A DNA stretch of 64,000 nt from Candidatus Eremiobacterota bacterium (GTDB lineage: Bacteria > Vulcanimicrobiota > Vulcanimicrobiia > Vulcanimicrobiales > Vulcanimicrobiaceae), in contig JAFAKB010000071.1 in the NCBI GenBank assembly GCA_019235885.1, positions 62,001-126,000 of the forward strand, in the 5' to 3' direction. Both the position numbers and the translations under genes were made by a program. Shown piece after piece: positions 33,763 through 40,410 of this stretch (position 1 is its first letter; every line of letters begins with the position of its first letter). The notes beneath the pieces are model-generated. The model was not told the DNA's origin, searched no databases, and worked only from the letters and a program-made list of their open reading frames with translations.

Positions 33763-34506
33763 ATGGACGGACTGGGGACGGCCCTGGAACAACTAGCCTC
33801 GATGCGACCGCCACCGCCGCCGCCGAGCGGGGCCGACGACGCCAACAAGGTCTGGTACTTGCGCCAGAACCGGCTCTTCGGCGAGGCCGCGGAAGCCGGG
33901 ATCGTCTCGACCGAGCACCTCTTCACGATGTGCGAGATGCCGCGCGGAACGCGCGTGTTCGACCAAGGCGACACGACGCGAATCGTCTACATGGTCAAGC
34001 GCGGCGCGGTGCGGATCGCGCGCGAGACGCGTGACGGCAAGGACGTCACCGTCGCGCTGCTCGGCGCGGGCGACTTCTTCGGCGAGGAGACGCTCTTCGA
34101 CGACCAACCGCGCACGACGGTCGCGATCGTCGTCGAGGACGCGCTGCTGTGCACCGTGCGCGCGGACGACCTGTTCGCGGTGCTCGCGCGCGACCCGCAG
34201 CTCGCGATGAACGTCGCCAAGGTGCTGAGCGGAAAGCTCGGCGACGCGCGCGAGACGATGGAAGATCTCGCCTACGCGCGGGTCGGCGACCGCATCGTCC
34301 ACCTCTACCGCAAGCTCGCCGCCGAGCACGGCGTGCGCGTCCCGGGTGGAACGCGCGTCGACCTGCGGCTCACCCACGCCGACGTCGCCTCGTTGGTCGG
34401 CAGCACGCGCGAGACGGTCAGCGCCGAGCTCGCCAAGCTGGTCGACGCCGGGCGGCTGCGCGCCGACGGCCGCGCGATCGTCGTTCCGCCGGAGGACCCG
34501 TCATGA
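33763..34506 (+). CDS. Crp/Fnr family transcriptional regulator
   Basis: A 247-residue regulator. After a Pro-rich N-terminal tail comes a cNMP-binding-type beta roll (about 50-150, FDQGDTTRIVYMVKRGAVRI, GAGDFFGEETLF) and a winged helix, with HTH at about 203-225 (LTHADVASLVGSTRETVSAE). No cysteine cluster, so not oxygen-sensing like FNR; the FGEETLF loop resembles the phosphate-binding cassette with changes. First gene of a coupled operon with three redox proteins, likely their own regulator. Confidence 0.88.
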   Translation: MDGLGTALEQLASMRPPPPPPSGADDANKVWYLRQNRLFGEAAEAGIVSTEHLFTMCEMPRGTRVFDQGDTTRIVYMVKRGAVRIARETRDGKDVTVALLGAGDFFGEETLFDDQPRTTVAIVVEDALLCTVRADDLFAVLARDPQLAMNVAKVLSGKLGDARETMEDLAYARVGDRIVHLYRKLAAEHGVRVPGGTRVDLRLTHADVASLVGSTRETVSAELAKLVDAGRLRADGRAIVVPPEDPS

Positions 34507-34964
34507 TCGCAGCGCTGTTCCTCGCCGCCGCCACGTCGCTCGCGCCGGTGCTCGCCGCGGCGCCGTGGGCGAACGCGGCCGGGCCGCCGCACCTCGCCGG
34601 GCGGGTCACCGTCGTCGACGTCTTCACCTTCAGCTGCATCAACTGCAAGCACGTCACGCCCGAGCTGCGCAAGCTGCGAGACTCGATCGGCTCGAACGAC
34701 CTCGCGATCGTCGGCGTCCACGCGCCCGAGCTGCCGGAGGAGCGCGTGCACAAGAACGTCGTGCAGGCGCTCAAGGACCAGGACATCACGTGGCCGGTCG
34801 TCTACGACGACAACTTCTCGGTCTGGAACGCGTACGGCGTCAGCGCGTGGCCGACGCAGCTCGTCTTCGACCGCCGCGGCAAGCTGCGCGCGACCTACGT
34901 CGGCGAAGGCTACGACGCGCAGCTCGAGCGCACCGTGCGCGCGCTGATCGCCGAGAAGACGTGA
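34503..34964 (+). CDS. Thioredoxin-fold protein, exported (CxxC)
   Basis: A 153-residue TlpA/redoxin-like protein coupled to the regulator by ATGA. A signal peptide (about 1-26, FLAAATSLAPVLAAAPWANA) precedes the thioredoxin fold with the redox motif SCINCKH (C45, C48) in VDVFTFSCINC. The cis-Pro region reads VSAWPTQLVFD. It probably reduces or exchanges disulfides outside the cytoplasm. It lies in a tightly packed unit with cytochrome b and a molybdopterin protein. Confidence 0.88.
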   Translation: MIAALFLAAATSLAPVLAAAPWANAAGPPHLAGRVTVVDVFTFSCINCKHVTPELRKLRDSIGSNDLAIVGVHAPELPEERVHKNVVQALKDQDITWPVVYDDNFSVWNAYGVSAWPTQLVFDRRGKLRATYVGEGYDAQLERTVRALIAEKT

Positions 34965-35770
34965 GCCCTGCACGCGTCTACCGGCACGGCGTGATTGCGC
35001 GCACCGCGCACTGGACCTGGGCGCTCGCGATCCTGGTGCTGGTGATGAGCGGGCTGCAGATCTTCAACGCGGCGCCGTACCTTGACGCCTCCGACAAGAG
35101 CAATCCCGCCCGGCGGCTGCTTGCGTTCGACGCGCAAGACACGCCGCGCGGTCCGGCCGGCTACACGATCCTCTTCGGACACCGCTTCACGACGACGCAC
35201 GTTTTTGGCTACACCGACGACGGGATGGGCGCCGAAACGCAGCGCGCGTTTCCCGGCTGGTTCACGCTGCCCGGACCGCAAGACCTCGCCGACGGCCGCC
35301 GCTGGCACCTGTTCTTCGCCTGGGCGCTGTTCGTCGGGTGGGCCGCGTACTTGATCTCCGCCGCATTGAGCGGGAAGCTGCGCGAGCTCGTTATGCGGCC
35401 CGAGGACTTTCGCAAGGTCTGGCCGATGCAGCTGTACTATCTGCGGCTGCGCAAGGAGCCGCCGCCGCACGGCACCTACAACCCGCTGCAGAAGCTGACC
35501 TACAACGTCGTCGTGTTCGTATTCTTTCCGCTGCTGATCCTGACCGGGCTGACGCTTTCGCCGGCGGTCGATGCGGCGCTGCCATGGCTGACGGCGCTCT
35601 TCGGCGGGCGGCAGTTCGCGCGGCTGTGGCACTTCACGCTGATGGTGCTGCTGCTCGGCTACTTCACGACGCATCTCGTGCTGGTGCTGACGACCGGGTT
35701 CTGGAACAACATGCGCTCGATGATCACCGGTTGGTTCGTCCTGGGCGCGCACGACGGGGTCGGACCGTGA
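34961..35770 (+). CDS. Cytochrome b561-type membrane subunit
   Basis: A 269-residue integral membrane cytochrome b, related to the b-type subunits of hydrogenases, formate dehydrogenase and thiosulfate reductase. About five TM segments, with candidate haem histidines in GVIARTAHWTWALAIL, RWHLFFAWALF, and FARLWHFTLMV/YFTTHLVLVL. It would pass electrons between the quinone pool and the coupled molybdopterin protein. GTG start overlaps the thioredoxin-like stop; its own stop overlaps the next start. Confidence 0.88.
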   Translation: MSPARVYRHGVIARTAHWTWALAILVLVMSGLQIFNAAPYLDASDKSNPARRLLAFDAQDTPRGPAGYTILFGHRFTTTHVFGYTDDGMGAETQRAFPGWFTLPGPQDLADGRRWHLFFAWALFVGWAAYLISAALSGKLRELVMRPEDFRKVWPMQLYYLRLRKEPPPHGTYNPLQKLTYNVVVFVFFPLLILTGLTLSPAVDAALPWLTALFGGRQFARLWHFTLMVLLLGYFTTHLVLVLTTGFWNNMRSMITGWFVLGAHDGVGP

Positions 35771-36511: not shown

Positions 36512-38161
36512 CTAGCAGTTGGTGTATGCTACCCCGATCTGCCCGACTGCCGCGCCGTTCGCGTCCGCCGCGTAGACGAGCCACTGCGCGAGACTTCCGC
36601 GACACATCGTCGACGGAATCGTGAACGAGAGACGTCCGCCGGCATTTTGAACCTGGGCTACTATGGGCTGAACTTGCCCTGCGGCGCTTTGAAAGCGCAG
36701 TGCCGGCGGAACACGTTGACCAGGCGGGACGATGAACGCGTTCGGTTGGCCGGGTACCAGCATGCAGTTCGGGATCATCGGCGAACAGCCCGGCGGCGTC
36801 GGTGTCGGCACCGGTGCCTTGTTCCCCGGTGGCTTCGGCGTTAGCTTCGGTTTGGGCGTCGGTGTCGGGGTAGGCGTCGGTGTCGCCGTCGGTGTCGGCG
36901 GCGGCGGTCTGCCGCCGGCGAGACAGACGATGGTGAACGTGCCCACATCGCCAAGTCCGGTCCCCGTGCTGTCGAGCACCGAGACATGCCATTTCGGCCC
37001 GTATTTGCAGAGCTCGGCCGACGCGGTTGCGCTAAGCGATCCGCCGCCTCCGGTGATCGGCGCGCGAATCTCCGGCGCGCTCTTCGGCGCGAAGATTTTG
37101 AAGATCAGCAGCGCGGGTGTGGTCGCGAGCGTGCTGCTCTTCCAGACCTTGATCTTGGTCCCGGGCGGACCGGCGCAGGGATCGATCTTCACCAGCGTTG
37201 ACGTGCCGCCGCAGCCGGCCGGCGGTCCGGAGCTCGGCGTCGCGAGCGGCGTCTTCGTCTGCTCCGCGGTACACTTAATCTTATAGTGCCCGACTTCGCC
37301 GAGGTAACCCATCGGCTTGAGCGCCTCGTCGGTGGCGGTGACGTTCCAGTTGAATTCCGCTGTCGGCGGCATCGTTACCCCCGGCGGCAGCGGTGGCCCG
37401 AGACGGCAGAGCTCGACGGGTGCGTGAACGACGAAGCCGCCAGGATGCTCTTCGACGCTCGCGATCACCTTCGTCGGCCCCAGCACCGCGAACAGCGGCG
37501 TAAAGTTAAGCTTCCACGGCTTGTACGTCAGCATCACCTGCGGCAGTACCGCGATCACGTCCCCGGGGACGCCGATGCAGGGGCGAATGTAGATGTGCGC
37601 GCCGGTCGTCGACACGCAGTTTGGTGACGGCCCGGAGGGCGGCGCAGGAGTGATGTGCGGAGCCGGTGTTTTCTTCGTGCAGTCGATGGTGAAGTGTCCC
37701 GCCTCACCTTCGAAGCCCATCAGTTTCCCCTTCGTGTCGAGCGCGAGCACGTTCCACGCCGCGCCGTATGCACACAGCTCTTTGGGAGCCGGCACCGTGA
37801 AACCGGTCGGGCCCTTCGAGACGACCGCGATCACCTGCAGCGGCGCGCGGACCGGAAACAGCGGGCGAAAGACCAGCTTCGCTGGCCGGGCATCAAGGTC
37901 GTGTTGCGGCAAGACGTTGATTAGGATGCCCGCCGGGCCTATGCACGGACGGATCACGATCGGCGCACCGGTCGTCGACACGCAACCTGGCCCGGGCCCA
38001 GGGGCGGGCGCGGCAGTGATCTTTGCCGTCGAGACGCTGCCCGCAGCCGTCGACGCCGTAGCCTTCGGCTTCGGCTTCGCGTTGGCACGACCGTCATGAG
38101 CCGCGATCACAAACAACAACGCGATCCCGAAAGCAGCGCCGAGACGATACTGTGCGCGCAT
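36512..38161 (-). CDS. Exported protein with four tandem four-cysteine modules
   Basis: A 549-residue exported protein I do not recognise. A signal peptide (about 6-27) and Lys/Pro/Thr-rich linker precede modules at about 60-161, 182-297, 317-413 and 459-549. Each has four cysteines in the same spacing: C60/C73/C130/C161, C182/C195/C252/C297, C317/C329/C385/C413, C459/C466/C520/C549. The first two share CVSTTGA and RPCIG. A threonine/proline repeat linker (PTPTATPTPTPTP, 422-450) precedes the last. GAGAGGA before the ATG supports the start. Probably a disulfide-bonded surface or secreted beta-sandwich protein. It converges on the molybdopterin gene. Confidence 0.75.
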   Translation of the reverse strand: MRAQYRLGAAFGIALLFVIAAHDGRANAKPKPKATASTAAGSVSTAKITAAPAPGPGPGCVSTTGAPIVIRPCIGPAGILINVLPQHDLDARPAKLVFRPLFPVRAPLQVIAVVSKGPTGFTVPAPKELCAYGAAWNVLALDTKGKLMGFEGEAGHFTIDCTKKTPAPHITPAPPSGPSPNCVSTTGAHIYIRPCIGVPGDVIAVLPQVMLTYKPWKLNFTPLFAVLGPTKVIASVEEHPGGFVVHAPVELCRLGPPLPPGVTMPPTAEFNWNVTATDEALKPMGYLGEVGHYKIKCTAEQTKTPLATPSSGPPAGCGGTSTLVKIDPCAGPPGTKIKVWKSSTLATTPALLIFKIFAPKSAPEIRAPITGGGGSLSATASAELCKYGPKWHVSVLDSTGTGLGDVGTFTIVCLAGGRPPPPTPTATPTPTPTPTPKPKLTPKPPGNKAPVPTPTPPGCSPMIPNCMLVPGQPNAFIVPPGQRVPPALRFQSAAGQVQPIVAQVQNAGGRLSFTIPSTMCRGSLAQWLVYAADANGAAVGQIGVAYTNC

Positions 38162-38243
38162 CGTTCCTCTCCCAGCAGGCGGTGCACACAAAGCCCGGGG
38201 ATGCGCGCCGCCGTGCTCGTCTACGATAGCACCATACTGCCCA

Positions 38244-38412
38244 TTAGTCGATCAAGAGCACGTTATCGAGATCGGCGATCAGATCGTCGCTCTTCTCAAG
38301 CCGCAACAGATCGTCCGGGATCGGCGGAGTTCGTCCCCTCGACCGATGCACGATGTTCGATCGGCTGTCAGGACCGCCGATGCTTGTCGCGCGGCTGCGG
38401 CGAAGCGCGGGG
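38244..38412 (-). pseudogene. C-terminal fossil of a trans-sulfuration PLP enzyme
   Basis: The minus strand encodes ATSIGGPDSRSNIVHRSRG and DDLLRLEKSDDLIADLDNVL before a TAA at 38244. This matches the C-terminus of the intact enzyme at 42519-43670 (ATSFGGPDSLVEHRASVEG and GDLLRLAAGLEDAGDLIADL) in order and spacing; DNA alignment between 38269-38410 and 42542-42700 is also visible. No start or upstream part remains. It lies directly before the start of the debranching enzyme gene. Confidence 0.7.
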
Positions 38413-38415
38413 CTG

Positions 38416-40410
38416 ATGGAAGCAGTTTCGGCACCGCGGCTCGATCGCGCGTCGTGCGCCGATCTCGACGTGTCCGAACGGCGCGAATGGCTCGTTACGA
38501 ACGGGCTCGGCGGGTTCGCCTGCGGAACGATCGCCGGAACAATCACGCGGCGCTATCACGGTTTGCTTTTCGCCGCGCGAACGCCGCCCGTGGGCCGCAG
38601 GCTGCTGTGCCCGAAGATCGACGCCGAGGTGGCGTACGACGGCGTAACGTACGCGCTCGCGACCGACCGCTGGCGCCGAGGCGCGATCGCGCCGCGAGGC
38701 TATATGTTCTTGACGGGCTTTCGGCTCGACGGGACGATCCCGGTGTGGACGTTTACCTGCGGCGACGCGGTGATCGAGCGGCGCGTGTGGATGGAGCACG
38801 ATCTCAATCGCACCTACGTCCAGCACCGCGCCGTTCGCGCGCGCATGCCGCTGGGGCTGACGCTGCACGCGTTCGCGAACTACCGCGACCTTCACGGCGC
38901 GACCCACGCCGGCAACTGGACGATGGACGTGCACGCAACGCCGGACGGAATTCGCGTGGTGCCGTACGAGGGCGCGATGACGATCGAGTTCCGCGCCGAC
39001 CGTGGCACGTTCGTCCCCGAGCACATCTGGTACCGCGACTTCGAGTATCCCGTCGAGCGGGAGCGCGGGCTCGACGATTCCGAAGACCACCTGCGCGTCG
39101 GCACGTTCGACACGCCGCTCGAGGCGGGTGAATCGATGACCATCGCGGTCGGCGACCACGAGTTGCCCGCGATCGATTCATCTGGTGCGCTCGAGCGCGT
39201 TCGACGCCGCGAGTCCGACCTGCTTGCCGCGTGGCGCGCTGCGCACGATAAAGCCGATGAGGCACCCGATTGGGTCGCGCGGCTCGTGCTCGCAGCCGAC
39301 CAGTTCGTCGTGGGCCGCCCGCTCGCCGATGATCCGGACGCGCGCTCGGTCATTGCCGGATACCCGTGGTTCGGCGACTGGGGGCGCGACACCGCGATCG
39401 CGCTGCCGGGTCTGGCGCTCGCAACGGGGCGCTACGACGTCGCGCGGCGGATCCTGCGCACGTTTGCGCGGTTCGTCGAGGACGGGATGCTGCCGAACTT
39501 CTTCCCCGACGAGGGGCAGCCGGCGGCGTACAACTCGGTCGATGCGGCGCTGTGGTACGTCGAAGCGGTCCGCCGCGACGTCGATGCGAGCGGTGATGCC
39601 CGAACGCTAAAAGAGCTGTTCCCGGTGCTGCGCGCGATCGTCGAGGCGTACAAGGCGGGAACGCGCTTCGGGATTGCTGTCGATCCCGCCGACGGGCTAC
39701 TGCGCGCCGGAGTACCCGGCGTGCAGCTAACTTGGATGGACGCGAAGGTGGGCGACTGGGTTGTCACGCCCCGAATCGGCAAGCCGGTCGAAGTCAACGC
39801 GCTGTGGATCAACGCGCTGCGCGCGTGTGCCCGGTTCGCGAAAATGCTCGGCGATGATCCCTCACCGTTCGCGACCGCCGCGGCGCGCGCCGAAGCCGGC
39901 TTCGAACGGTTTTGGAGCGCCGCGCACGGCTGGTGCTTCGACGTCATCGACGGACCGAACGGCGACGATCCCTCACTGCGTCCGAACCAGCTCTTCGCGG
40001 TCGCCCTTCCCATCGACGTCCTCGACGATGCACGCCGCCGCGCGATCGTCGACGTGTGCTCCGCACGTCTTTGGACGCCGGCCGGATTGCGCAGCCTCGC
40101 GCCGGGCGAGCCCGGCTATGCCGGACGGTACGAAGGCGACCAGCGGGCGCGCGACGCCGCCTACCATCAGGGCACGGTATGGACGTGGCTTGCCGGGCCG
40201 TTCGCGCTCACGCACGCGCGCGTCTACGGCGACGCGGCCGCGAGCGCCGAACTGCTCGCGGCCTGCGCGCGCGACGGGCTGACCGGCGACGCGTTCGGCA
40301 CGCTCGGCGAGATCGCCGACGGCGATCCGCCGTTCGCTGCGCGCGGCGCGTTCGCGCAGGCATGGAGCGTTGCAATGGTGCTCGACGCGTGGTCGCAGCT
40401 CGCACGGTAA
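38416..40410 (+). CDS. Amylo-alpha-1,6-glucosidase (glycogen debranching enzyme, GDE family)
   Basis: A 664-residue bacterial/archaeal-type debranching enzyme, removing the alpha-1,6 branch glucose from glycogen. N-terminal beta domain starts REWLVTNGLGGFACGTIAGT, TRRYHGLLFAA. The (alpha/alpha)6 barrel has YPWFGDWGRDTAIALPGL with the acid region, DAALWYVEAV, LTWMDAK, and LGEIADGDPPFAARGAFAQA near the end. I start at the ATG at 38416 because frames upstream lie antisense in the pseudogene. No other glycogen gene is near. Confidence 0.9.
   Translation: MEAVSAPRLDRASCADLDVSERREWLVTNGLGGFACGTIAGTITRRYHGLLFAARTPPVGRRLLCPKIDAEVAYDGVTYALATDRWRRGAIAPRGYMFLTGFRLDGTIPVWTFTCGDAVIERRVWMEHDLNRTYVQHRAVRARMPLGLTLHAFANYRDLHGATHAGNWTMDVHATPDGIRVVPYEGAMTIEFRADRGTFVPEHIWYRDFEYPVERERGLDDSEDHLRVGTFDTPLEAGESMTIAVGDHELPAIDSSGALERVRRRESDLLAAWRAAHDKADEAPDWVARLVLAADQFVVGRPLADDPDARSVIAGYPWFGDWGRDTAIALPGLALATGRYDVARRILRTFARFVEDGMLPNFFPDEGQPAAYNSVDAALWYVEAVRRDVDASGDARTLKELFPVLRAIVEAYKAGTRFGIAVDPADGLLRAGVPGVQLTWMDAKVGDWVVTPRIGKPVEVNALWINALRACARFAKMLGDDPSPFATAAARAEAGFERFWSAAHGWCFDVIDGPNGDDPSLRPNQLFAVALPIDVLDDARRRAIVDVCSARLWTPAGLRSLAPGEPGYAGRYEGDQRARDAAYHQGTVWTWLAGPFALTHARVYGDAAASAELLAACARDGLTGDAFGTLGEIADGDPPFAARGAFAQAWSVAMVLDAWSQLAR

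Follow-up and report, generated by a model that had tools for sequence, protein, structure and literature searches.

A family of exported four-cysteine modules with a predicted immunoglobulin-like fold in Eremiobacterota

An uncultured soil bacterium of the Eremiobacterota encodes an exported protein with four tandem copies of a four-cysteine module, within a contiguous 64,000-nucleotide stretch of its genome (the window, to which all unprefixed positions refer). As far as tested, the modules appear to constitute a new sequence family; their predicted fold is very common and their architecture is common. We propose that the protein is probably a Sec-exported string of four E-set immunoglobulin-like domains, each stapled by two putative disulfides, which would form a stable rod rather than an enzyme.

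The open reading frame (36512..38161, minus strand) runs from an ATG at 38161 to a stop at 36512 and encodes 549 amino acids. A Shine–Dalgarno-like GGGAGAGGA lies upstream of the ATG, at approximately 38165–38173, and the GC content by codon position (0.62/0.58/0.79) matches the expectation for a coding frame. The N terminus, MRAQYRLGAAFGIALLFVIAAHDGRANA, reads by eye as a Sec-type signal peptide (residues 1–27, 38081..38161: MRAQYR, a hydrophobic core and RANA) that is likely cleaved after ANA, and no lipobox was seen in residues 1–27 of the translation; the export of the protein is predicted from this peptide. A Pro/Ala/Thr-rich linker follows (residues 28–56, 37994..38080). The remainder of the protein, on the same strand, alternates modules delimited by alignment and profile with linkers evident in the translation: module 1 (37676..37993; Cys 60, 73, 130 and 161), also supported by an AlphaFold2 model; a Pro/Thr linker (residues 163–178, 37628..37675); module 2 (37268..37627; Cys 182, 195, 252 and 297), with a 14-residue Pro-rich insertion ahead of the F strand; a second Pro/Thr linker (residues 299–313, 37223..37267); module 3 (36920..37222; Cys 317, 329, 385 and 413); a long (PT)n/(PK)n linker (residues 415–455, 36797..36919); and the divergent, shorter module 4 (36515..36796; Cys 459, 466, 520 and 549), the final cysteine of which is the C-terminal residue. 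Neither an anchor nor an enzyme was found within the gene itself.

The four modules described in the sequence-only reading are real repeats. All 16 cysteines of the protein fall inside modules, four in each, and local alignment scores between modules (257 for modules 1 and 2, 149 for 1 and 3, 90 for 2 and 3, and 72 for 3 and 4) were reached by none of 1,000 shuffles, the means of which were 26–30. Because these scores lie so far above the shuffled values, the similarity is not due to chance, and by this measure modules 1–3 are clearly homologous, as are modules 3 and 4. Scores for modules 1 and 4 and for modules 2 and 4 were reached by 3 and 23 of the 1,000 shuffles, respectively; a profile that had no module 4 among its rows still detected this module (E = 4 × 10−7, genome search). 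The spacing C-x12-C-x56-C-x30-C given in that reading is exact in module 1 and approximate in the others (x12-x56-x44 in module 2, x11-x55-x27 in module 3 and x6-x53-x28 in module 4, which is indeed the shorter one), and CVSTTGA and RPCIG are common to modules 1 and 2, as had been noted, along with the Pro/Thr linkers. Identity to module 1 declines from module 2 (57% protein, 59% DNA) through module 3 (38% and 53%) to module 4 (27% and 44%). On these values, modules 1–3 look like the products of non-recent tandem duplications, and module 4 looks either older or faster evolving than the others.

A match between a module and a known Pfam domain, named in advance as the result that would count against novelty, did not occur. 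Neither Pfam (hmmscan of the whole protein and 16 modules) nor NCBIfam (protein and modules) gave a significant match, DUF642 (PF04862) was not detected in the window protein by hmmscan, and the Pfam TIG model (PF01833) did not match the window protein at any E value up to 10 or reach its gathering score with the whole protein or any of the 16 modules. Weak NCBIfam matches to DedD, Erm(32) and SslE were set aside as largely due to low-complexity sequence or chance. Sequence searches of the PDB returned nothing useful: a match to internalin K (E = 0.026) covers residues 341–453 and thereby includes the long linker, and one to a viral polyprotein (E = 0.66) was discarded. Profile–profile comparison of the module with TIG sequences is only suggestive of similarity; the hhalign probabilities are 8.9% and 3.0%, 3 of 120 column-permuted controls score as high, and there is weak agreement at the strand-A/B motif (P.SGP.GT.vTI versus PC.GPPG..I.V). 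In the source genome, the TIG search matches another protein and not that of the window: G000:C5:35309-36049 (L104, L111) has two true TIG domains (PF01833, above the cut-off) and is separate from the module family. A DUF642 search of the source genome had no match, but its controls were unmatched too. In the literature searched, no paper joins ‘immunoglobulin-like’ and ‘Eremiobacterota’.

Profile searches recovered further copies of the module in predicted exported proteins from the bacterial family to which the source genome belongs. A first scan of genome contigs found nothing, and searches of relatives with a single sequence mostly matched Pro/Thr linkers; two genuine relatives, the single-module proteins L003 and L008, seeded a five-row profile that detected modules in 10 of 99 genomes of the family, with most members outside the profile at E = 10−11 to 10−17. 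A 16-row profile matched 11 of 149 genomes of the phylum, all within this family, the weakest of which is doubtful (G104; E = 0.002, with an internal stop). The window protein is the sole carrier found in its own genome by profile search. Scanning 84,980 species with one peptide pattern returned seven loci, titled Candidatus Eremiobacterota, candidate division WPS-2 or UBP12. The domain family is thus apparently lineage-restricted, a limit that is provisional because modules 1–4 themselves would fail to match the pattern used. One candidate (L020) was dropped because it overlaps a secretion-ATPase-like reading frame in another frame, and origins in phages or plasmids were not favoured, as no relative was found among IMG/VR viral contigs (one pattern) or in plasmids.

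Relatives carry the module in diverse architectures. It occurs alone (L081, 148 amino acids; L072, approximately 120 amino acids), with DUF642 N-terminal (L082, L083) or C-terminal (L076) to a single module, as one or two modules behind an unnamed N-terminal domain (L077, L078, L079), as two modules (L070, 13346-14593 and 7739-8815) and as one truncated module followed by a plastocyanin-like end (L071, 6828-7850; sub-threshold, E = 0.094), in addition to the four modules of the window protein. Fusion to DUF642 in either order marks the module as a mobile domain. A DUF642-type domain co-occurs with the module in four genomes (G001, G004, G008 and G053); PF04862 was confirmed in three of these proteins, with E values down to 10−23, and one DUF642-bearing stretch also has a sub-threshold CBM_4_9 match. 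The unnamed N-terminal domain (L077, 4882-6315; L078, 5296-6324; L079, 650-1570) contains ..HWNGGRGKPPGTLGLKSNATG..YGPYAA.GSSGQGGAPNVNW.., is conserved across three genomes and is matched by no Pfam family. One contig (G013:C45, approximately 157–181 kb) has five module genes within about 25 kb (L070, 7739-8815, 10956-11894 and 13346-14593; L071, 6828-7850 and 11288-12436), a local family expansion, and some of its modules are very divergent (CPGA..LLSSCSGAPGT). Two more predicted exported proteins lie beside these genes (L070, 4228-5127 and 11852-12517), the latter with two cysteines and an apparently Ig-like look.

Structure prediction gave a confident beta-sandwich for two distant modules. 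AlphaFold2 models of module 1 (12-row alignment; pLDDT 87.5, pTM 0.82) and of the L077 module (pLDDT 86.0, pTM 0.80) share the same strand order; the L077 module is 26% identical to module 1, and its alignment excluded all window sequences. In Foldseek, none of the PDB matches fell below E = 0.001; the best was to the galactose oxidase family (E = 0.0034). In VIA-align, the module 1 model matched the IPT/TIG domain of EBF1 (Z = 8.2; 83 residues aligned, 3.5 Å), galactose-oxidase-type and cyclodextrin glucanotransferase (CGTase) E-set domains (Z of approximately 7–8.4) and the Bacteroides glycan-binding protein SGBP-B (6e9b; Z = 8.2), and the L077 model matched plexin A2 (Z = 9.6; 89 residues aligned, 2.9 Å), the IPT/TIG domain of EBF3 (9.2), the TIG domain of CAMTA1 (8.8) and Met (8.8). 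Z scores of 8–9.6 are moderate and only somewhat exceed the values usual for models that lack a clear match, and identity in the IPT/E-set structural alignments is only 7–21%. For both models, most of the top PDB rows are IPT/TIG, Rel C-terminal, CGTase or galactose oxidase E-set domains. Because a single fold class fills most of the match list for two models with little shared sequence, we consider it very probable, on the strength of these models, that the modules adopt an E-set fold. The earlier suggestion of a new extracellular disulfide domain is therefore supported at the level of the sequence family, which is predicted to be exported, is probably disulfide-bonded, lacks a Pfam or NCBIfam match and recurs in other proteins; it does not extend to the fold, which is predicted to be a familiar IPT/TIG-like immunoglobulin sandwich.

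Four cysteines (C4, C17, C74 and C105) are invariant in all rows of alignment A3, which comprises 16 modules from 12 proteins and has a profile pattern of roughly C-x(6-14)-C-x-G-P-P-G ... L-C ... W-x-V ... G-x-I-G-x-F-T-I-x-C. The modules thus have a conserved even number of cysteines, a trait of extracellular disulfide domains. No continuous segment of A3 proved sufficiently conserved to serve as a scan pattern. The model of module 1 places the first cysteine (C1) in the N-terminal coil and the second (C2) between strands A and A′; a short helix preceding strand F holds C3, and C4 sits where strand G ends. Should F and G run in opposite directions, as they do in Ig-like folds, F would begin next to the end of G, so C3–C4 pairing is likely, leaving C1 and C2 as the other pair. 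A single truncated relative (L071, 6828-7850) keeps C1 and C2 and is missing the C-terminal half, which fits C1–C2 pairing. From conservation, export and topology, we deduce that each module likely contains two structural disulfides. One relative, a reading frame of 213 amino acids (L041; G124:C148), has a module with a long central insertion that bears two extra cysteines.

The genomic setting says little about function. Its flanking genes, named by eye from their sequences, are a convergent sulfite-oxidase-like gene and a divergent glucosidase-like (debranching-enzyme-like) gene of 685 amino acids (38353-40410), with thioredoxin-like and cytochrome b561-like genes nearby (approximately 34500–35770). 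The left flank is kept in one of four relatives fetched, G006 of the same genus, which is also the only one for which both flanks were recovered. There, the block M16–Crp–thioredoxin-like–cytochrome b–sulfite-oxidase-like ... glucosidase is syntenic, and the place of the four-module gene is taken by a GMC oxidoreductase-like gene of 519 amino acids (L097, 3443-5002). Because this genome has another gene in its place, the four-module gene looks accessory, and its neighbours accordingly tell little about its role; a functional link to them is not supported, as G006 keeps the block without it. No conserved partner gene was found beside the module genes of the family members inspected.

Exported strings of small Ig-like domains joined by Pro/Thr linkers usually serve as binding rods or spacers; outside the cell, disulfides would help to keep the sandwich stable. 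Plant DUF642 members are cell-wall proteins (PMC6651502), and the association of the module with DUF642 gives it a plausible, if unproven, link to polysaccharides. We infer an extracellular location and, with reasonable rather than high confidence, a spacer or binding role in general. Most likely, one putative disulfide in each domain (C1–C2) would join the N-terminal loop to strand A/A′ and the other (C3–C4) would tie the E–F helix to the tip of strand G; Pro/Thr linkers, flexible and possibly glycosylated, would string the domains together, and the resulting extracellular or envelope rod would probably space or present surfaces that bind matrix, polysaccharide or neighbouring proteins. More tentatively, this shuffled, disulfide-stapled family, if peculiar to Eremiobacterota, could be a general surface or matrix building block with ligand-binding loops that vary by module.

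Sugar contact rather than spacing could instead be the main function, with the modules as carbohydrate-binding domains of a polysaccharide-capture system. The DUF642-type co-occurrence, the CBM_4_9 match, the structural matches to CGTase, galactose oxidase and SGBP-B and the adjoining glucosidase-like gene point in this direction. The glucosidase-like neighbour is, however, conserved in the genus without the four-module gene, and modules 1–4 have no evident conserved exposed aromatic platform, with a conserved tryptophan in the F strand. In solved proteins of the CGTase, galactose oxidase and SGBP-B type, moreover, the principal sugar site usually lies outside the E-set domain, and we regard sugar binding as the chief function as unlikely.

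Slightly less likely again is that the protein serves as an adhesin or a receptor-like partner and attaches to a second envelope protein, in the manner of the IPT-containing receptors plexin and Met. Receptor IPT domains are among the closest folds, and loops differ among modules (the insertion in module 2 and the deletion in module 4), but fold similarity does not carry function, and no partner gene is conserved beside the family members inspected. That the cysteines bind metal or serve redox chemistry is very improbable: four cysteines per module, the plastocyanin-like segment of L071 and the nearby thioredoxin-like and cytochrome b561-like genes would agree with such a role, but the cysteines are spread across the domain without a CxxC motif and the redox genes are conserved in G006 without the four-module gene. 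A spacer or binding rod stapled by structural disulfides is the reading that we prefer.

With the module, a widespread and poorly cultured phylum gains a domain family that appears to be unrecorded, and the A3 profile can be used to annotate exported proteins of Eremiobacterota. The family further suggests that an IPT-like fold can acquire two putative disulfides as its sequence drifts beyond the reach of Pfam models. No new mechanism is indicated, as the bead-on-a-string design and the fold are already familiar. Among known domains, DUF642 (PF04862) shares polypeptides with the module in relatives but is distinct from it and does not occur in the window protein. The E-set domains of CGTase (domain D) and galactose oxidase (domain III) resemble the module in predicted fold (Z of approximately 7–9), but lie within large enzymes and are only 7–21% identical to it. 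IPT/TIG domains (PF01833; EBF1/EBF3, plexin A2, Met and CAMTA1) share the predicted Ig-like E-set sandwich over approximately 80–90 residues (Z of 8–9.6), a start motif of the P.SGP.GT.vTI kind and tandem use in exported proteins. Beyond the lack of a Pfam TIG match up to E = 10 and an hhalign probability of only 3–9%, the module differs from them in its length (approximately 105 residues versus 84), its four invariant cysteines and the E–F helix that holds C3.
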